Of a stretch of DNA of 64,000 nucleotides, positions 49,499 to 63,997 are shown in pieces. The position numbers and the translations under genes are program-made. Positions within the stretch are counted from its first letter, which is position 1. The number at the start of each line of letters is the position of its first letter. The notes under the pieces were generated by a model. It ran no database searches, was not told the DNA's origin, and worked only from the letters and a program-made list of their open reading frames with translations. Source of the stretch: an uncultured Tateyamaria sp. (GTDB taxonomy: Bacteria > Pseudomonadota > Alphaproteobacteria > Rhodobacterales > Rhodobacteraceae); NCBI RefSeq assembly GCF_947503705.1, contig NZ_CANNES010000001.1, positions 1,060,501 through 1,124,500 of the forward strand, given 5' to 3'.

Positions 49499-50536
49499 AT
49501 GACTATTTCACGCAAATCGTTCCTGAACCTCGTGGGGGCTGCAGCCCTTGCGCTGGGTGCCGGTGGGGCGGCACAGGCCCAGGAGGTCACGCTGAGCCTG
49601 CATCAATTCTTGCCCGCGCAAGCCAATGTGCCAAAGCTGATCCTGGATGTCTGGGCCGACAACGTCGAAGAGGCCAGTAACGGCCGGATCAAGGTTGACC
49701 GTTTTCCTTCCATGCAGTTGGGCGGTCGCCCCCCTGAGTTGATGGATCAGGCCATTGATGGTGTCGCCGATATCGTCTGGACCGTGGTGGGTTATACCCC
49801 CGGCCGCTATCCGAGCACCGAAGTGTTCGAACTGCCCTTTATGATGACGGACGCGCGCGCGATGTCGTCGGCCTATTGGCAGATGTTCGAAAAGCACATG
49901 AAGGACACCGAGTTCAAGGACGTGCACATCCTGGGCACTTGGGTCCATGGCCCCGGCATGATCCACGTCAACAAAGAGGTGAAGACCCCTGCCGACATGG
50001 AAGGCCTGAAGATCCGTGGCGGGTCGCGCACCGTCAACAACCTGCTGGAAAAGATGGGCGCGACACCTGTTGGAATGCCCGTTCCTGCCGTGCCAGAGGG
50101 CCTGAGCAAAGGTGTCATCGACGGCACCACGATCCCGTGGGAAGTAACCGCCGCGTTGAAAGTGCCGGAGCTGGTGGGCAACCACACCGAGTTCGAGGGC
50201 AACGCGCTTTATACCCTCACCTTTGTGCTGGCGATGAACAAGGCCCGCTATGAGGGCCTGCCTGCGGATCTGCAAAAGGTCATTGACGACAATTCGGGCC
50301 TTGAATTCAGCATCTTTGCGGGCGGCACACAGGCCGATTCTGACGGGCCCGCCCGTCAGCTGGCAGTGGATCGTGGCAACAACATCGTCACGGTGACCGG
50401 TGGTGATCTGGATGCGTGGCGTGCCGTGTCTCAGCCCATTTATGACGAATGGGTGGCGGATATGGAAAGCAAGGGCATCGACGGTCAGGCCCTGATCGAC
50501 GAAGCCCGCGCCCTGATGGATGCCTATGACGGCTAA
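49499..50536 (+). CDS. TRAP transporter substrate-binding protein (DctP family)
   Basis: A 345-residue periplasmic DctP-type protein. The signal peptide MTISRKSFLNLVGAAALALGAG ends near AQAQE. The conserved Arg that clamps the ligand carboxylate is in GLKIRGGSRTVNNLL, and VPAVPEGLSKGVIDGTTIPWE is the usual binding-site strand. It is first in a three-gene TRAP operon placed directly before aromatic CoA-ligase genes. An aromatic or phenylpropenoid carboxylate is therefore the likely cargo (inference). GGAGG lies 6 bases before the ATG. Confidence 0.9.
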   Translation: MTISRKSFLNLVGAAALALGAGGAAQAQEVTLSLHQFLPAQANVPKLILDVWADNVEEASNGRIKVDRFPSMQLGGRPPELMDQAIDGVADIVWTVVGYTPGRYPSTEVFELPFMMTDARAMSSAYWQMFEKHMKDTEFKDVHILGTWVHGPGMIHVNKEVKTPADMEGLKIRGGSRTVNNLLEKMGATPVGMPVPAVPEGLSKGVIDGTTIPWEVTAALKVPELVGNHTEFEGNALYTLTFVLAMNKARYEGLPADLQKVIDDNSGLEFSIFAGGTQADSDGPARQLAVDRGNNIVTVTGGDLDAWRAVSQPIYDEWVADMESKGIDGQALIDEARALMDAYDG

Positions 50537-50545
50537 GTCATGAAT

Positions 50546-50579
50546 GGGGCCGCGGTCAAAGGATCGCGGTCCCTTTTTC
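50546..50579 (+). terminator. Attenuator-like terminator between dctP-like and dctQ-like genes
   Basis: GGGGCCGCG and CGCGGTCCC pair (with one G-T wobble) around an 11- or 12-base loop and are followed by TTTTT. It lies just after the binding-protein gene and should reduce read-through into the membrane subunits, giving excess binding protein. Confidence 0.78.
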
Positions 50580-50598
50580 TTTGCGAAATGAGGCGTTT

Positions 50599-51168
50599 AT
50601 GCACCTTTTGGTGAAATGGTTGTCACGCGCGTCGGCGGTAATCGGCGGCATCGTCCTTATGATCCTGATCGTGCTGACCACATTGTCGATCCTGGGTCGC
50701 GAAATCTCCAAGCTTGCCCATGGCTGGGCCGACGGCGGATGGTTGTCGGGATTTGGCGAGTTGCTGATTGCCATCGGCATTGACGAGATCAATGGCACTT
50801 ATGAACTGACCGAGGCCGGTGTCGCCTTTGCTATTTTCGCCTTTTTGCCTGTTTGCCAGTTCTATGGCGGGCACGCGACAGTTGACGTCTTTACCTCAAC
50901 GATGCGCCCCCGCGCATTGGCCTGGTTGCGCGCCTTTTGGGAAGTCGTGTTGTCCGTTGTGATCATCTTTATCACCCTACGCCTTTACGAGGGGATGCAG
51001 CGGTATCTGGGCAATGGCGAGACGACGCTTTTCCTGCAATTCCCGGTCTGGTGGTCTTATGCGGCCTGCGTGGGTGCAGCTGTCATCGCCTGCATTACAG
51101 CCGCATATTGCGCTTTTGCCCGCGTATCCGAGGCGGTCACCCGCCGCACAATTTTGCCGGAAGGGTAG
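50599..51168 (+). CDS. TRAP transporter small membrane subunit (DctQ family)
   Basis: A 189-residue protein with four membrane helices. The ATG at 50599 follows TGAGGCG; an upstream in-frame start at 50581 is less likely. The motif CQFYGGHATVDVF resembles the DctQ block before helix three. The loop after helix one (WADGGWLSGFGELL) is longer than in most DctQ proteins. It joins the DctM subunit in the inner membrane. Confidence 0.85.
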   Translation: MHLLVKWLSRASAVIGGIVLMILIVLTTLSILGREISKLAHGWADGGWLSGFGELLIAIGIDEINGTYELTEAGVAFAIFAFLPVCQFYGGHATVDVFTSTMRPRALAWLRAFWEVVLSVVIIFITLRLYEGMQRYLGNGETTLFLQFPVWWSYAACVGAAVIACITAAYCAFARVSEAVTRRTILPEG

Positions 51169-51174
51169 GCGACG

Positions 51175-52530
51175 ATGCAGACCATCCTCGACCTGCTGCC
51201 TTTTGCAGATATGAGCCGCCTTGAACTTGGCTTCTGGTCCTTTCCGGTACTGTTGGGCTTGATTTTCATCCGCGCGCCCATCGGGCTGGCCATGCTGCTG
51301 TGCGGCTTTGGCGGCTGGTATTTTGCCATGAACGGCAATCCCATTCCGCTTCTGGCCAAGCTGAAGTCGGAGACCTACACCACCTTTTCCAACTACTCAT
51401 TGACCATCATCCCGATGTTCCTACTGATGGGTCAATTCGCGACCCTGTCGGGCATGTCGACGGCGCTGTTCAAGGCGGCCGAAAGCTTCCTTGGTCATCG
51501 CAAAGGTGGTGTGGCCATGGCGGCGGTGGGGGCCTGTGCCGGTTTTGGGGCGATCTGTGGCTCGTCTCTCGCGACCGCCGCCACGATGAGCCGCGTGGCC
51601 CTGCCGGAGTTGAAGCGTTATGGTTATTCTGGAGGGTTTTCAACCGCGACACTGGCCGCCGGGGGAACTCTGGGCATTCTGATCCCACCCTCGGTCATCC
51701 TTGTGATCTATGCGATCATTACTGAACAGAACATCGCCAAGCTGTTTTTGGCAGCCTTTATCCCAGGTATCCTGGCAGCCCTTGGATACGTGATCACCAT
51801 CTCGATCTATGTACGGCTTTTCCCCAAATCGGCGGGGACGCGGCCCCCCGTTCCCATGGCCGAACGATGGAAAGCGCTGGCGACAACATGGCCGGTTCTT
51901 GTGATATTTGGCCTTGTCGTGGGTGGCATCTATGCGGGCTGGTTCACCCCTACCGAAGGGTCGGCCATCGGTGCCGCTGGCACGGGCCTCGTGGCCTTGG
52001 TCGGCGGCAACCTCAGCTGGCGGGTGCTGGGCGAGGCGTTGATCGGGACGGCAAAAACCACTGCGATGATCTTTTTCATCGTGTTGGGTGCTGCGTTCTA
52101 CAACGGCTTTCTGGCCCTGTCAGGCGTTCCGCAAACCTTGGCAGATTTTGTTTTGAACCAAGGGTATAGCCCGTTCTTTGTCCTTTCGGTGATCTTGTTG
52201 TTCTACCTGATCTTTGGCTGTGTGATGGACAGTCTGTCGATGATCCTGCTGACGGTGCCAATCTTTTTCCCCGTCATCTCGGCGATGGATTTCGGCATGT
52301 CGCCGGAACATGTGGCAATCTGGTTCGGTATCCTAGTGTTGATCGTGGTCGAGGTCGGATTGATAACCCCGCCCGTCGGCATGAACCTTTTCATCATCAA
52401 CGCCATGGACCGCGAAACGCCCATGACACAGACCTACAAGGCGGTCATGTTTTTTGTCGGATCGGACATTGTGCGGGTGATCTTGCTTGTGATGTTTCCG
52501 GCGATCACGTTGTTCCTGATACCGGCCTAA
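51175..52530 (+). CDS. TRAP transporter large membrane subunit (DctM family)
   Basis: A 451-residue membrane protein with about 12 helices. Family blocks are visible: GFGAICGSSLATAATMSRVALPELKRYGY, AAGGTLGILIPPSVILVIYA and VEVGLITPPVGMNLFIIN. It forms the sodium-driven translocation channel. It follows dctQ by 6 bases and completes the operon. Confidence 0.92.
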   Translation: MQTILDLLPFADMSRLELGFWSFPVLLGLIFIRAPIGLAMLLCGFGGWYFAMNGNPIPLLAKLKSETYTTFSNYSLTIIPMFLLMGQFATLSGMSTALFKAAESFLGHRKGGVAMAAVGACAGFGAICGSSLATAATMSRVALPELKRYGYSGGFSTATLAAGGTLGILIPPSVILVIYAIITEQNIAKLFLAAFIPGILAALGYVITISIYVRLFPKSAGTRPPVPMAERWKALATTWPVLVIFGLVVGGIYAGWFTPTEGSAIGAAGTGLVALVGGNLSWRVLGEALIGTAKTTAMIFFIVLGAAFYNGFLALSGVPQTLADFVLNQGYSPFFVLSVILLFYLIFGCVMDSLSMILLTVPIFFPVISAMDFGMSPEHVAIWFGILVLIVVEVGLITPPVGMNLFIINAMDRETPMTQTYKAVMFFVGSDIVRVILLVMFPAITLFLIPA

Positions 52531-58097: not shown

Positions 58098-58915
58098 TGG
58101 AATGGTTGTCTGGGAATTTGGATGTGGCGGGCAACAGCCTGGAATATGCGTGCTGGGGCCCACCACCTGGCGCAGCACCAACGTTGGTTTTGTTGCATGA
58201 GGGTTTGGGGTCGGTCGGGTTGTGGCGCGACTGGCCTGCGCAATTGGCCAAGGCCACAGGATACGGCGTGTTGGTTTATTCGCGCGCGGGATATGGGCGG
58301 TCATCGACGGTAACCTTGCCACGCCCGCCGGATTACATGAGCATTGAGGCCGAAACGGTACTTGGCCGGGTTCTGGATGCGGCTGGTGTCACCTCTGCTG
58401 TGCTATTGGGCCATTCGGACGGGGCCACGATTGCGGCGATCTATGCAGGGTCCGTATCTGACATGCGCGTGCGCGGCTTGATCCTGATGGCGCCACACTT
58501 TTTTTGCGAACCTATTGGTGTTGAAGCGATCAGTCGGGCCAAAGTCGCCTATGAAACCGAGGGGTTGAAAGAACGCATGGCGCGTCACCACGATGCGCCG
58601 GATGTTGCGTTTTACGGCTGGCATGATGTCTGGACAGATCCGGCAAATGACACGTGGTCCGTGGCCGACTGCATTGATCATTGGCGCATTCCGGCTTTGG
58701 CCATTCAGGGCACCGCAGACGCCTATGGCACGCTAGACCAGATCGACGAGATCGAGGGAAGGATTTACGCCCCGTTTGAAAAGCTGATCCTGGATGGGAT
58801 CGGCCATGCGCCGCATCAAGAGGCCACTGATAAAGTGACATCTGCCGTCGCTGATTTCTGCACGCGCTTGCGTCGCATTGAAAGCCAGGTGGTGGATATT
58901 CCGGAGGCGGGGTGA
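58097..58915 (+). CDS. Alpha/beta-fold hydrolase of the box cluster
   Basis: A 272-residue alpha/beta hydrolase. The nucleophile elbow is LLGHSDGAT, the oxyanion region VLLHEGLGSVGLW, and the probable catalytic His is in DGIGHAPHQE. Alpha/beta hydrolases accompany several box operons. A thioesterase that rescues CoA from stalled intermediates is one proposal, and hydrolysis of an aromatic ester to feed the ligase is another. The sequence does not decide. It overlaps DUF309 by 4 bases. Confidence 0.82.
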   Translation: MEWLSGNLDVAGNSLEYACWGPPPGAAPTLVLLHEGLGSVGLWRDWPAQLAKATGYGVLVYSRAGYGRSSTVTLPRPPDYMSIEAETVLGRVLDAAGVTSAVLLGHSDGATIAAIYAGSVSDMRVRGLILMAPHFFCEPIGVEAISRAKVAYETEGLKERMARHHDAPDVAFYGWHDVWTDPANDTWSVADCIDHWRIPALAIQGTADAYGTLDQIDEIEGRIYAPFEKLILDGIGHAPHQEATDKVTSAVADFCTRLRRIESQVVDIPEAG

Positions 58916-59346
58916 GCGATTTTCGCAACCCGCCGCATGCCTACGTCCCGGGCCAGACCATACGGCATCCGGAGGGATTGTTTGACCCGTTGAAGGTCGG
59001 CATACACAACGCGATGACCGAGGGCGAGATGCAGTCGAGCCTCGCCTGGCGGGCCGGTATCCGATTTCGCGATGACGGGTTTTATTGGGAGTGCCACGAG
59101 GTGCTTGAGGCACTTTGGCTAGCGACCCCGGACGGCGCCCTGCGCAACTATGTGCAGGCTGTCATTCAACTGGCCAATGCACAGCTCAAGTCGCGGATGG
59201 ATCGCCCAAAGGCCGTCCGCCGGTTGTGCATGATCGTGCAGAGCTTGCTTGACGAATGTGAGGGGCGCACGATGATTCTCGGCCAGAACGTTGAGCGTTT
59301 GCGCGCCGAGGCTTGCGCTTTGCAGGATTTGCACCAGAATGAGTAA
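58912..59346 (+). CDS. DUF309 family protein
   Basis: A 144-residue helical protein starting at GTG 58912 (GTGA overlap). The DUF309 signature is clear: GFYWECHEVLEALWLATPDG, then AVIQLANAQLKSRMDRPKAVRRL. The paired His/Glu residues of this helical fold could bind metal. The function of the family is unknown. Here it is locked by overlap into a benzoate-degradation transcription unit, an unusual specific context for this family. Confidence 0.8.
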   Translation: MSDFRNPPHAYVPGQTIRHPEGLFDPLKVGIHNAMTEGEMQSSLAWRAGIRFRDDGFYWECHEVLEALWLATPDGALRNYVQAVIQLANAQLKSRMDRPKAVRRLCMIVQSLLDECEGRTMILGQNVERLRAEACALQDLHQNE

Positions 59347-59423
59347 TAAAATGCACTAATTTCGGAATTAGCACCCCCAGTGATGTCACAATTGGTGTGA
59401 GAGTGTAAGATAGTGCAAAATAC
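59347..59423. promoter_or_regulatory. boxC promoter region with two TAGTGCA motifs and a dyad
   Basis: Motifs are TAGTGCATTTTA on the reverse strand (59347-59361) and TAGTGCAAAATA on the forward strand (59409-59423). Between them CTAATT-TCGG-AATTAG (59356-59371) forms a perfect dyad flanked by TGCA and GCA. The layout suggests a repressor-controlled promoter immediately before boxC. Confidence 0.55.
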
Positions 59424-59448
59424 ACCACCTGCGCTGTCCGGAGGAAAC

Positions 59449-61110
59449 ATGGCTAAAATCATCGATTTTCAGACGGACCCGTCGCGCTACCGCCATTGGC
59501 GGGTTGAATATGAGGGACCGGTTGCGAACCTGTACATGGACGTGGACGAGAATGGCGGCTTGTTTGACGGTTACCAGCTCAAGCTGAACTCTTACGATCT
59601 GGGCGTGGATGTCGAACTGGCCGATGTGGTCCAGCGGATGCGCTTTGAACACCCCGAGGTCAAGGTTGTGGTCATGCGCTCGGCCAAGGAAAAGGTGTTT
59701 TGCGCAGGCGCCAATATCCGGATGTTGGGCGGGGCCGCGCATGCCCACAAGGTAAATTTCTGCAAGTTCACCAACGAGACCCGCAATACGTTCGAGGCCG
59801 CCGAAGTGGATAGCGGCCAAAAGTATGTCGCGGCGGTCAAGGGGGCTTGTGCGGGTGGCGGATACGAGTTGGCGCTGGCGTGCAATCACATCATGCTGAC
59901 GGATGATTCCTCGTCTTCGGTCGCGTTGCCAGAAGTGCCGTTGCTGGCCGTTTTGCCGGGTACGGGTGGCCTGACCCGGGTGACGGACAAACGCAAAGTG
60001 CGACGCGATCTGGCCGATGTGTTCTGTTCCACCGAAGAGGGGGTAAAGGGGAAGCGCGCGGTGAAATGGAACCTCGTGGACGAGGCCATTCCAAACTCGA
60101 AATTTGACGAAACGGTTGCAGCACGGGCGGTGGAATTTGCGCAAGCGTCTACCAAACAAGACGTGGCGAAGGGGATCACGCTTGGGCCGCTCAACAAGAC
60201 CATAAGCGAGGACGGCTCGCTGCACTACTCGCTGGTCGAGGTTTCGGTCGAACGCGATGCGCGTCGTGCGACGCTGACCCTCAACGGGCCGGATGCGGAC
60301 CCACCGGCTGACATGAGCGATTTTCTGTCTCAGGGGGACCAGGCCTATATGCTGCGTCTGGCCCGTGAACTGGACGATGCCATCCTGCATTTGCGGCTGA
60401 ACGAACCCGAGCTTGGCCTGTTGGTGTTTCGCGCCCAGGGCGACCCGGGGGCAGTTGTGGCACATGAGGCCGTTTTGATGGCCGAGCCTGATCATTGGCT
60501 GGCCAATGAGGTGCTAAAGTACTGGAAGCGCGTCCTGAAACGGGTTGATGTAACGTCACGGTCGATGGTGGCCCTGGTCGAACATGGAAGCTGTTTTGCG
60601 GGTGTTCTGGCCGAACTTTTGTTCGCCGTGGACCGCACATACATGATGGAAGACGAGTTCGAAGGCGACAACCGCCCCGTGGCCACGGTGACCCTGACCG
60701 CTGCCAACTTTGGCCTCTATCCTATGGGCAATGACCTCAGCCGTCTGGAGACCCGGTTTTACGGGACGCCAGAGGCGGTTGCCGGTGCCCGAGAGCATGT
60801 TGGTGAGGCGCTGGAGGCGGAGGATGCTGATGATCTGGGCCTTGTCACAATGATTCTGGATGACATCGATTGGGAGGATGAAATTCGCATCTTCATGGAG
60901 GAACGCGCCAGTTTCAGCCCCGATGCAATGACAGGGATGGAGGCGAACCTGCGCTTTGTAGGCCCCGAAACGATGGAAACGCGGATTTTCGGCCGCCTGA
61001 CGGCCTGGCAGAACTGGATTTTCAATCGCCCCAATGCGGTGGGCGAAGTAGGCGCGCTGCAACGCTATGGCACAGGTGTGCGCGGTGATTTTGACATGGA
61101 GCGGGTGTGA
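59449..61110 (+). CDS. boxC: 2,3-Epoxybenzoyl-CoA dihydrolase
   Basis: A 553-residue BoxC. The ATG at 59449 follows GGAGG; a GTG at 59413 lies in the promoter motifs. The crotonase-like N-terminal half has VFCAGANIRMLGG and GACAGGGYELALACNHI (oxyanion holes) and VPLLAVLPGTGGLTR. The second half (about 250-553) is the extra domain typical of BoxC. It opens the ring of 2,3-epoxybenzoyl-CoA with loss of formate to give 3,4-dehydroadipyl-CoA semialdehyde. boxB follows after 24 bases. Confidence 0.95.
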   Translation: MAKIIDFQTDPSRYRHWRVEYEGPVANLYMDVDENGGLFDGYQLKLNSYDLGVDVELADVVQRMRFEHPEVKVVVMRSAKEKVFCAGANIRMLGGAAHAHKVNFCKFTNETRNTFEAAEVDSGQKYVAAVKGACAGGGYELALACNHIMLTDDSSSSVALPEVPLLAVLPGTGGLTRVTDKRKVRRDLADVFCSTEEGVKGKRAVKWNLVDEAIPNSKFDETVAARAVEFAQASTKQDVAKGITLGPLNKTISEDGSLHYSLVEVSVERDARRATLTLNGPDADPPADMSDFLSQGDQAYMLRLARELDDAILHLRLNEPELGLLVFRAQGDPGAVVAHEAVLMAEPDHWLANEVLKYWKRVLKRVDVTSRSMVALVEHGSCFAGVLAELLFAVDRTYMMEDEFEGDNRPVATVTLTAANFGLYPMGNDLSRLETRFYGTPEAVAGAREHVGEALEAEDADDLGLVTMILDDIDWEDEIRIFMEERASFSPDAMTGMEANLRFVGPETMETRIFGRLTAWQNWIFNRPNAVGEVGALQRYGTGVRGDFDMERV

Positions 61111-61134: not shown

Positions 61135-62583
61135 ATGGACTTGGTAAACGTCAGCTATGACACACAGATTCCCAATAATGTCGGCCTGAGCAGTGACCGC
61201 AAGGTCCTGAAAGCGCTGGAGAAATGGCACCCCGGTTATATTAATTGGTGGAACGACCTGATCCCGCAGAACTTTCAGGAAAGCATGGTGTACCTGCGGA
61301 CTGCTGTCAGCGTTGACCCAAAAGGCTGGGCGAAATTTGACTATGTCAAAATGCCTGAGTACCGCTGGGGCGTTTTGCTGGCCCCCGCAGTCGAAGAGCG
61401 CAAAATTCCCATGGGCGAGCATTACGGCGAGCCCGCCTGGCAAGAGGTGCCGGGCGAGTACCGCAACATGCTCAAACGCCTGATTGTGATCCAGGGCGAT
61501 ACCGAGCCGGGCTCAGTCGAGCAGCAGCGGTTTTTGGGCCTGACGGCCCCCAGCCTTTACGACATGCGCAACCTCTTTCAGGTTAATGTCGAAGAGGGGC
61601 GGCACCTTTGGGCCATGGTTTATCTGCTTCAGAAATACTTCGGCAAGGATGGGCGCGAAGAAGCGGATGACATGCTTGTCCGATCCTCGGGCAGTGAGGA
61701 AGCGCCGCGGATGCTGGGCGCGTTCAACGAGGAAACGCCCGATTGGCTCTCCTTTTTCATGTTCACCTACTTCACCGACCGTGACGGCAAGATGCAGCTC
61801 GAAAGCCTGGCGCAATCGGGATTTGACCCGCTCAGCCGGACCTGCCGCTTCATGCTGACCGAGGAAGCGCACCACATGTTTGTGGGCGAAACCGGTGTGG
61901 GGCGGACCATTCAGGCGACGCTTGAGGCGATGACTGCCAACGGGATCACTGACCCCTATGACATCGGCAAAATCCGCGACCTGGGTGTCATTGACCTGCC
62001 CACGATCCAGAAAAAGCTGAACCTGCATTATACGCTGTCGCTCGATCTCTTTGGTCAAGAGGTAAGCACCAATGCGGCCAACGCCTTCAACGCAGGGGTC
62101 AAGGGTCGGTATATGGAGCAGCGGATTGACGACGACCACAAGTTGCAAGACGACACCTATGCAGTGACGAGCATCAAGGATGGTCAGATCGTGACCGAGG
62201 ATGTGCCCGCGCTCACCGCGATCAACATGCGGCTGCGCGATGACTATGTACGCGATGCGTCCGGTGGGGTCGGACGCTGGAACAAGCTTATTGCCAAGTC
62301 AGGGATCGAATTCCAGCTCAAGCTGCCGCATGAAGGGTTTCACCGTCAAATCGGTGTGTTTTCGTCCGTGGCCGTTGATCCCGATGGGGCCATCATCTCG
62401 GGCGATGAATGGGCCAAGCGGCAGCATGAATGGTTGCCAACCAAAGAAGACGGTGCCTTTATCCAGTCGCTGATGAAACCTTGCTTTGAGCCCGGCAAAT
62501 ATGCCAGCTGGATCGCCCCGCCCAAAGTGGGGATCGACAACAAGCCCGGCGATTTCGAGTATGTCAAACTGCACATGGCCTGA
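61135..62583 (+). CDS. boxB: Benzoyl-CoA 2,3-epoxidase, oxygenase subunit
   Basis: A 482-residue class I di-iron epoxidase. Probable iron ligands are in VNVEEGRHLWAMVYLLQ and LTEEAHHMFVGETG. The start MDLVNVSYDTQIPNNVGLSSDRKVLKALEKW is typical of BoxB, and AGAGGAGACGTAAG precedes the ATG. It uses oxygen and electrons from BoxA to epoxidise benzoyl-CoA at carbons 2 and 3. It is followed, after 65 bases, by a 56-residue Cys-motif protein rather than directly by boxA. Confidence 0.96.
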   Translation: MDLVNVSYDTQIPNNVGLSSDRKVLKALEKWHPGYINWWNDLIPQNFQESMVYLRTAVSVDPKGWAKFDYVKMPEYRWGVLLAPAVEERKIPMGEHYGEPAWQEVPGEYRNMLKRLIVIQGDTEPGSVEQQRFLGLTAPSLYDMRNLFQVNVEEGRHLWAMVYLLQKYFGKDGREEADDMLVRSSGSEEAPRMLGAFNEETPDWLSFFMFTYFTDRDGKMQLESLAQSGFDPLSRTCRFMLTEEAHHMFVGETGVGRTIQATLEAMTANGITDPYDIGKIRDLGVIDLPTIQKKLNLHYTLSLDLFGQEVSTNAANAFNAGVKGRYMEQRIDDDHKLQDDTYAVTSIKDGQIVTEDVPALTAINMRLRDDYVRDASGGVGRWNKLIAKSGIEFQLKLPHEGFHRQIGVFSSVAVDPDGAIISGDEWAKRQHEWLPTKEDGAFIQSLMKPCFEPGKYASWIAPPKVGIDNKPGDFEYVKLHMA

Positions 62584-62648
62584 GACCAAAACATCCCCGT
62601 AAGGCGTACTTGCAGTGCGCCAACCCCGGACCAAAGGAGAAATGCCGT

Positions 62649-62819
62649 ATGACCATTTCCCGAAACATCGGCCACGCCCCGCGCACCCGCGCGCTGGCCG
62701 AAGAGTTGAATGCTCTGAACGGCCCATGCATCGGTTGCACGGGGTGCGAGGGGGTGTGTCAGGCGCTGCTTGACGCCCTAGTCGTTCCGGATGTGGTGAC
62801 CAAGGCTGTGCGCCGATGA
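62649..62819 (+). CDS. 56-residue CX2CX2CX3C small protein between boxB and boxA
   Basis: MTISRNIGHAPRTRALAEEL and a further 36 residues. Cys27, Cys30, Cys33 and Cys37 (CIGCTGCEGVC) follow the spacing of a ferredoxin [4Fe-4S] site, the same CX2CX2CX3C spacing as BoxA Cys15/18/21/25, but with Gln where Pro usually follows. AGGAG lies 9 bases before the ATG, and the stop overlaps the boxA start by 4 bases (ATGA). There is no signal or membrane segment. I know of no described family. A redox or assembly partner of BoxAB is the natural guess. Confidence 0.75.
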   Translation: MTISRNIGHAPRTRALAEELNALNGPCIGCTGCEGVCQALLDALVVPDVVTKAVRR

Positions 62820-63997
62820 ATCAACCGCTCAAGCAACATCTGATCGACCCCGAGATCTGCATTCGCTGCTACACCTGCGAAAACACCTGCCCCATCGGGG
62901 CGATCGAGCATGACGACAACAATGTGGTCGTAAACGCGGACATCTGCAATTTCTGCATGGATTGCATCCCCGTTTGCCCAACCGGGTCCATCGACGAATG
63001 GCGGGTCGTCGAAACGGCTTATACGCTCGAAGAGCAATACGAGTGGGACGAGCTGCCAGAGCAGGCAGATATCGCGGTGTCCGCCCCGGAAGAAGGCGAG
63101 ATTGACGATGCCGTCGCGGCGCTTTTGGCTGAAGCCCATGCCGGGGCCGGGGGGAAGTCCAAACCACCTGCGTCCGCCGCCAAACCTGCGATCAATATGT
63201 ACAATCTGGGCAAGCCAGCGACCCTGCTGGTGCAGGGAAATTACCGACTGACGGATGACCCGGACCACGATGTGCGCCATATCATTCTGGACACGAACGG
63301 CTTGCCATTTCCCGTGCTCGAAGGGCAATCGGTGGGGATCATTCCTCCCGGGACGGACGCAAGCGGCGCGCCGCATCTGCCGCGCCTCTATTCCGTGTCC
63401 TCGCCACGTGATGGTGAGCGACCGGGCTATCACAACATCTCGCTGACCGTGAAACGCGAGGCGGAGGGTATCGCCTCAAACTACCTTTGCGATCTGATAC
63501 AAGGCGCCGACGTGCAGGTGACCGGCCCCTTTGGCGCGACATTCCTGATGCCAAATGACAATGATGCGCGCATTCTGATGATTTGTACCGGTACCGGCTC
63601 TGCGCCTATGCGGGCTTTTACGATGCAGCGCCAGCGCACCAGCGGGGGCGAGACCGGTGGCATGACCATGTTTTTTGGCGCTCGCACTCCCCAAAGCCTG
63701 CCCTATTTTGGCCCCCTCAAGAAGGTGCCCGAAGGATTGTTGCAGAAGCACCTCGTGTTCAGCCGTTTGCCGGATCAGCCCAAGGAATATGTGCAGGACC
63801 GGATGTTGGCAGAGGTCGATACGGTTGCCGAAATCTTGGGCGACCCGGCAACACACATCTATATCTGCGGCCTCAAGGGGATGGAGGACGGCGTTGAAAA
63901 AGCGCTGACCAGCATCGCGGAAAGCATGGGCCAACCCTGGACCACCATGCGCGATGCGATGCGGGACGAGGGACGCTATCACGTGGAAACCTACTGA
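62816..63997 (+). CDS. boxA: Benzoyl-CoA epoxidase, reductase subunit
   Basis: A 393-residue NADPH reductase. Two ferredoxin clusters sit at Cys15/18/21/25 and Cys44/47/50/54. An acidic and Ala/Pro linker follows (about 70-120), then an FNR-type flavin domain (LPRLYSVSSPRDGE, FAD binding) and an NAD(P) domain (ILMICTGTGSAPMRAF; THIYICGLKGMEDGV). It transfers electrons to BoxB. The order boxC-boxB-small ORF-boxA differs from the ABC order of Azoarcus. The protein is complete, with its stop at 63995-63997. Confidence 0.95.
   Translation: MNQPLKQHLIDPEICIRCYTCENTCPIGAIEHDDNNVVVNADICNFCMDCIPVCPTGSIDEWRVVETAYTLEEQYEWDELPEQADIAVSAPEEGEIDDAVAALLAEAHAGAGGKSKPPASAAKPAINMYNLGKPATLLVQGNYRLTDDPDHDVRHIILDTNGLPFPVLEGQSVGIIPPGTDASGAPHLPRLYSVSSPRDGERPGYHNISLTVKREAEGIASNYLCDLIQGADVQVTGPFGATFLMPNDNDARILMICTGTGSAPMRAFTMQRQRTSGGETGGMTMFFGARTPQSLPYFGPLKKVPEGLLQKHLVFSRLPDQPKEYVQDRMLAEVDTVAEILGDPATHIYICGLKGMEDGVEKALTSIAESMGQPWTTMRDAMRDEGRYHVETY

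Follow-up and report, generated by a model that had tools for sequence, protein, structure and literature searches.

The 4Fe-4S ferredoxins are defined by two Cys motifs, or a remote Cys-Pro ligand, for each cluster. The fourth Cys of their CX2CX2CX3C motif serves a second cluster, and because of this it would be unusual for a single motif to give all four ligands to one cube. PMC4498308 reports that BoxA does not co-purify with BoxB and is needed in minor amounts only, so it is a fair question how BoxB is supplied with electrons. It also describes PaaD of the phenylacetate pathway, which accompanies a related CoA-ester epoxidase as a small accessory protein. Cells cannot do without PaaD, and catalysis in vitro does not require it; it is about 170 residues long, and a DUF59 domain is predicted in it (PMC4498308). 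Literature searches read at the level of titles and the first lines of abstracts turned up neither a small protein nor a flavodoxin of the box cluster.

The window, which is the whole stretch of 64,000 nucleotides that was analyzed, has a small gene between boxB and boxA. The features used here are as follows.

49499..52530, + strand: TRAP-type transporter genes, the upstream flank of the box genes (ORFs; tblastn with the proteins of orphan locus L143)
59413..61110, + strand: boxC, 2,3-epoxybenzoyl-CoA dihydrolase (TIGR03222, 952.2 bits)
61135..62583, + strand: boxB, di-iron benzoyl-CoA epoxidase subunit (TIGR03225, 905.9 bits against a cut-off of 499.1)
62635..62639, + strand: AGGAG ribosome-binding site, nine bases 5' of the small-gene ATG (read from the sequence)
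62649..62819, + strand: small Cys4 gene (translation; 56-row family alignment; codon test)
62816..62819, + strand: ATGA overlap of the small-gene stop and the boxA start (read from the sequence)
62816..63997, + strand: boxA, reductase with two 4Fe-4S motifs and a flavin/NAD-binding part (TIGR03224, 533.8 bits against 459.2)

The boxA product also matches Pfam Fer4 and NAD_binding_1. We take the TRAP-type genes to be dctP, dctQ and dctM. This flank served to recognize the former box-cluster site in orphan genomes, meaning those that have the small gene and no BoxB, and relatives of these transporter genes recur in other loci. The same is true of a DUF309 protein encoded within the box cluster (58912-59346). 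The gap between boxB and the small gene contains an imperfect inverted repeat, GGCGTACTTGCAGTGCGCC, at 62603-62621.

The small gene encodes 56 residues, MTISRNIGHAPRTRALAEELNALNGPCIGCTGCEGVCQALLDALVVPDVVTKAVRR, with Cys at 27, 30, 33 and 37 in the spacing CX2CX2CX3C. The preliminary description had picked out the ATG, the AGGAG, the four Cys in this spacing and the 4-base overlap with boxA, and the sequence confirms each of them. It had also pointed to the missing Pro behind the fourth Cys and the lack of a second cluster, and the translation shows neither that Pro nor a second motif. The protein has neither two motifs nor a remote Cys-Pro, which places it outside the ferredoxin definition.

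What the small protein shares with the ferredoxins is one loop. CX2CX2CX3C is also found in the Fer4 group and in PsaC, and sequence matches of the small protein fall on it. The weak Pfam matches are mostly to this loop. The PDB matches by sequence cover nothing beyond the Cys loops, chiefly that of PsaC and otherwise those of ferredoxins, and the best of them has an E of 0.00028 over 15 residues. Unlike ferredoxins, the small protein stays below every Pfam cut-off, both for the window protein and for 56 members of its family. The best Pfam score of the window protein is Fer4_2, at 11.3 bits against a cut-off of 24.5, and the best Fer4-type match among the 56 members is Fer4_18 with an E of 0.0023, under the cut-off. 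No NCBIfam model reaches its cut-off for the window protein or for its counterpart at locus L071, so as far as these two collections go the protein is undescribed, as claimed. It is unlike PaaD in that no DUF59 match was found in Pfam. A plasmid collection gave no match to the window protein at an E of 0.01.

The predicted outline also differs from that of a ferredoxin. An AlphaFold2 model of middling quality (pLDDT 74.6, pTM 0.44) has a helix at 11-22, the Cys loop and a helix at 36-55, a helix-loop-helix. A second model made with a wider alignment is poorer (pLDDT 68.5, pTM 0.38) and has the same outline. Foldseek found no match to the first model in the PDB. BoxA's ferredoxin domain has the Cys motif in common with the small protein and their genes adjoin, and one can imagine that the small protein is an offshoot of that domain. 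This is not supported: hhalign gives a probability of 2.4 over 16 columns, and the likeness of the profiles is limited to the motif.

Relatives came from a protein search of 198 family genomes and from inspection of BoxB loci. The consensus of the 56-row alignment is MxIxRxxxxAPRTxAL...GPCVGCxxCxGLCxxLIEALxLPDxVL. All four Cys and the Gly of CXGXC are invariant in this alignment (A1) and in a second one of 64 rows (A2). It must be noted that the invariance of the Cys in A1 is partly a selection effect, since its members were first picked by the Cys pattern together with a C-terminal pattern. Loci L036 and L095 do not have the C-terminal pattern and stand outside A1. The ORFs of the genome census described below were picked with the looser pattern C..C...C, which requires three Cys. 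All 59 have four. Their spacing is CX2CX2CX3C in 56 and CX3CX2CX3C in 3, and the CXGXC Gly is kept in 58. The window gene has an in-frame TTG upstream of its ATG; the aligned relatives nevertheless start at ATG, their start codons having been chosen by hand near the position of the window's ATG.

The substitutions follow a coding pattern. The median pN/pS of 22 close pairs is 0.35 in frame, and the two frame shifts of these pairs give 1.36 and 2.04. The pairs were chosen for pN < 0.25, which favors a low ratio. The fractions of differences at codon positions 1, 2 and 3 of these pairs are 0.253, 0.164 and 0.491. Over all 1540 pairs the median is 0.71, with silent sites near saturation. From the way its relatives evolve, the small ORF looks like a real gene. 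The preliminary description had named a broken Cys motif or frame in related box clusters, or a non-coding pattern of substitution, as evidence against it. The motif and frame are conserved and the substitutions are coding-like, therefore neither was found.

The distribution of the small protein was examined in a census of 394 Rhodobacteraceae genomes from 393 genera. BoxB is found in 82 of these and a match to the small-protein profile in 66. Both occur in 58 genomes, the small protein alone in 8, BoxB alone in 24 and neither in 304. The small protein is therefore in 58/82 genomes with BoxB versus 8/312 others (Fisher P 6e-41, uncorrected for relatedness). The profile is blind to the type of small protein found next to flavodoxins, which is not part of this count. 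Profile matches in G001 and G093 were dropped, as they cover part of the Cys loop only.

Of the 82 BoxB loci, 81 were read downstream; at the remaining one, G728, the contig breaks off. BoxA comes next in 71. A small ORF starting with ATG lies at 53 of these and none was found at 16; of the remaining two, G672 has a small ORF with another start and the one in G009 is frameshifted. A flavodoxin comes next to boxB in five loci, three of which have the small ORF. Neither is next in the last five: G102 ends with its contig, and in G080, G598, G774 and G605 (the last counted by profile, without an ATG) the small gene adjoins boxB without an adjacent boxA. Of these four, boxA was shown to be elsewhere in the genome for G080. 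Altogether the small ORF is present in 62 of 80 readable BoxB loci if divergent copies are counted. One of the 62 is frameshifted and one, in G017 (L036), is divergent; it was counted by its place, Cys pattern and overlap, with a profile E of only 0.059.

A search of 385 genomes across the class (at least 5 from the family) at an E of 1e-4 returned only the window's own copy; it scored no more than 16 candidates per genome, so weak or flavodoxin-type copies may be lost. Among 80 BoxB loci of named genomes, 30 are named for groups outside the Rhodobacterales or only as Alphaproteobacteria, and none of the 30 has the small ORF, one of them (L134) being cut 124 bases 3' of boxB. Sulfitobacter mediterraneus (L068), for example, has the box genes in place and a BoxA 80% identical to the window's, and no small ORF.

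Many benzoate degraders of the Roseobacter family carry the small protein, an accessory that adjoins boxB and is strongly linked to it, far above chance. It had been proposed as a third BoxAB component that is locked between boxB and boxA and could carry an extra [4Fe-4S] cluster, mediate electron transfer between BoxA and BoxB or help assemble the di-iron site. The linkage agrees with a third component and the ATGA overlap with boxA occurs in 36/53 census loci where BoxA is next and the small ORF starts with ATG. Against the lock, the gene is absent from 16/71 loci and occurs without box genes. An obligate third subunit is ruled out by those 16 loci and by nine genomes that have the gene without BoxB (one copy being frameshifted).

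The tree of BoxB agrees that the component is not obligate. It has 118 rows, 60 of which have the small ORF, and at least 17 changes of state are needed, or 5 when weakly supported branches are disregarded. The labels are clustered on the tree (0 of 500 shuffles gave a count as low). This pattern fits an old gain with repeated loss, or transfer. Eight of 126 rows were left out of the tree. Those left out as duplicates or for cut flanks are L100, L091, L120, L185 (a further duplicate) and L182 and L134 (both cut); L147 and L149 carry the small ORF and were omitted from the tree count in error. The frameshifted L052 was labeled as having the ORF.

A second type of locus is worth considering. The gene order at three Tateyamaria loci (L071, L072 and L074) and in G139, G625 and G686 is boxB, a diverged small ORF with the spacing CX3CX2CX3C, and a flavodoxin-like gene. 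In G056 and G762 and at L089, L093 and L117 the small ORF is missing and the flavodoxin-like gene is present. At the six L-numbered loci just named this gene takes the place that boxA has in other loci, and so it does at L212 (8484-8942), L183, L181, L230 and L231. The flavodoxin-like protein of G625 matches the MioC and flavodoxin models, below their cut-offs. BoxA is absent from the G056 and G139 genomes at an E of 1e-60; at the remaining flavodoxin loci the search covered the fetched stretch only. It is possible that the flavodoxin is an alternative electron donor for BoxB.

The two types of small protein are homologous (hhalign probability 93, E 3e-7, 40 columns). In the census all 3 of the small ORFs beside a flavodoxin have CX3CX2CX3C, versus none of the 56 CX2CX2CX3C ORFs beside a flavodoxin. 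BoxB of the Tateyamaria flavodoxin loci falls within the window's own BoxB clade (SH-aLRT 96), and G625 belongs to the window's own genus. The type of small protein therefore tracks the donor gene more than it tracks BoxB. Joint transfer of neighboring genes could also explain this link, and few lineages are involved.

Since the type changes with the donor, a role in electron supply is favored over one in BoxB assembly. We tentatively argue that the small protein belongs to the electron supply of BoxB, as an accessory redox protein of the iron-sulfur kind, and that it has another role elsewhere; this is the explanation we prefer, and we regard it as possible rather than probable. In its favor are the invariant Cys and Gly, the likeness to the Cys loops of PsaC and ferredoxins, the linkage to BoxB, the four loci where the small gene adjoins boxB without boxA, the change of type with the donor, and FNR-type sites (described below) upstream of a minority of copies. 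The CX2CX2CX3C loop between the two helices would most likely hold one oxygen-labile [4Fe-4S] cluster. The protein would dock on the electron donor, which is BoxA or, in some other species, the flavodoxin. It would then assist electron transfer to the di-iron oxygenase, or sustain that transfer at low oxygen. BoxB could do without it, and a second partner would explain why some lineages kept the small gene without boxB. Counted against a redox role are the 16/71 BoxA-next and 2/5 flavodoxin-next loci where the small ORF is missing, as well as the orphans, which have no BoxB to serve. The FNR-type sites also count against it in that they are a minority and the window's own gap has no good one.

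The rival that survives best is a maturation or repair factor, which would bring iron or a cluster to the di-iron site of BoxB or to the clusters of BoxA, and would serve another metalloenzyme in genomes that lack box genes. The small gene stays beside boxB where boxA is not adjacent, as such a factor might. A factor that is dispensable in some hosts and has other clients also fits the losses and the orphans. PaaD, the proposed factor of this kind for the phenylacetyl-CoA epoxidase, is a precedent for a protein required in the cell and not in the test tube. However, a factor specific to BoxB should track BoxB, and what the type of small protein tracks is the donor gene. Nor was any similarity to known assembly factors found in Pfam. 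We consider maturation somewhat doubtful.

One can also imagine a regulatory or sensing peptide of low-oxygen metabolism, a zinc or redox switch that binds metal or uses its thiols and has no more in common with boxA than its expression. The spacing of CXXCXGXC is also similar to that of DnaJ-type zinc motifs, and the small gene is present in places without box genes. The regions upstream of the small gene are relevant here too. PMC5398030 gives TTGAT-N4-ATCAA as the Fnr site, and a perfect copy lies 76 bases 5' of the G193 orphan. FNR-type boxes with at most 1 mismatch are found 60-110 bases upstream in 8/90 regions (L035 being counted twice) versus 0.29% of random windows (P 4e-10), and with at most 2 mismatches in 14/90 versus 3.1% (P 7e-7). 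These P values are rough, since some of the regions come from related genomes and the background contains coding DNA. The best site in the window's own gap has more than 2 mismatches. FNR control would at most apply to a minority of small-gene copies. The long gaps between boxB and the small gene at L037, L039, L041, L061 and L087 share, by eye, the stretch TGnTAnAnT, like an extended -10 element. It may mark a promoter of its own for the small gene together with boxA. A general regulator makes it hard to explain the strong linkage to BoxB and the change of type with the donor, and no DNA-binding family or fold was matched in Pfam or by Foldseek with the first model. We regard the sensor as unlikely.

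A variant of the redox idea is that each chain is half a ferredoxin. With one loop per chain, a complete cluster would require two paired chains, or a chain docked to the donor or BoxB. Assembly of the cluster would itself be the switch that turns on electron transfer at low oxygen. The module would have been refitted where flavodoxin replaced BoxA and recruited to a role independent of the box genes in several lineages. We find this scenario quite improbable.

The copies without BoxB must still be explained. The eight orphans in the census, which was searched with the small protein to find them, are in G106, G143, G193, G602, G624, G651, G716 and G773. A ninth, G582, is from the genus of G106 and its genome is 85% complete. 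BoxA and BoxC are also absent from G106, G193 and G143; around the other orphans they were checked within 20 kb. In addition, G767 has a second copy of the small gene on a contig other than that of its box locus. Presence without BoxB means that another partner, or chance, is needed. A further rival is that orphans are passive leftovers of deleted box clusters and that the protein acts only with BoxAB.

Several observations speak for deleted clusters. The box genes of G583, which shares its genus with G106, are flanked by dctPQM and, at the other end, by ycaQ-lacI. In another 85 loci (mostly read for 5 kb on each side) a dctM relative more than 50% identical occurs in nine and a lacI or ycaQ relative in seven, and G583 is the only case where both flanks together surround box genes. 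The small gene lies between both flanks in G106 and G193. There are dctPQM genes near the orphans of G582 and G651 and near the extra G767 copy, and ycaQ-lacI near those of G624 and G773. The dctM match of G193 (L144, 11481-9874) is split in two by about 180 additional bases. Five of the eight in-sample orphans probably sit at former box-gene sites, next to one or both flanks. Other cluster genes are left as well, a DUF309 gene beside the orphan in G651 (L207) and a ligase gene in G767. Between its ycaQ and dctM, G106 shares only about 300 bases with the box region of G583. They cover the small gene, part of the sequence upstream of it and, judged by eye, the first 14 or so codons of boxA, which run into a stop. 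The boxA remnant speaks for loss in G106 and against an ancestral state. Its dctPQM is 82.4% identical to that of G583, 78.6% to G582 and 74.2% to G193, which suggests separate losses; a regain in G583 is also possible. The small gene can be lost too, since G580 and G581 of this genus have neither it nor BoxB, while G583 has both. The orphan of G143 has a frameshift close to a run of G, and either decay or a sequencing error could account for it.

Against passive leftovers, nine of ten orphan copies have an open frame that keeps the four Cys and the Gly; the copy in G651 is shorter at 47 residues. Constraint is clear in the pair G106-G582 (pS 0.69, pN/pS 0.30) and weaker in the other pairs computed (pN/pS 0.48 to 0.87). 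The orphans of G602, G716 and G143 are at places other than the box-cluster site, and those of G602 and G716 are open. We regard passive leftovers, with a function of the protein only beside BoxAB, as distinctly unlikely.

A conserved Cys4 protein whose type changes with the neighboring donor gene and loci with a flavodoxin in place of boxA are two concrete handles on the electron supply of BoxB. The orphan copies suggest that the small protein has a life outside this pathway. If so, it is a family of small proteins worth naming.
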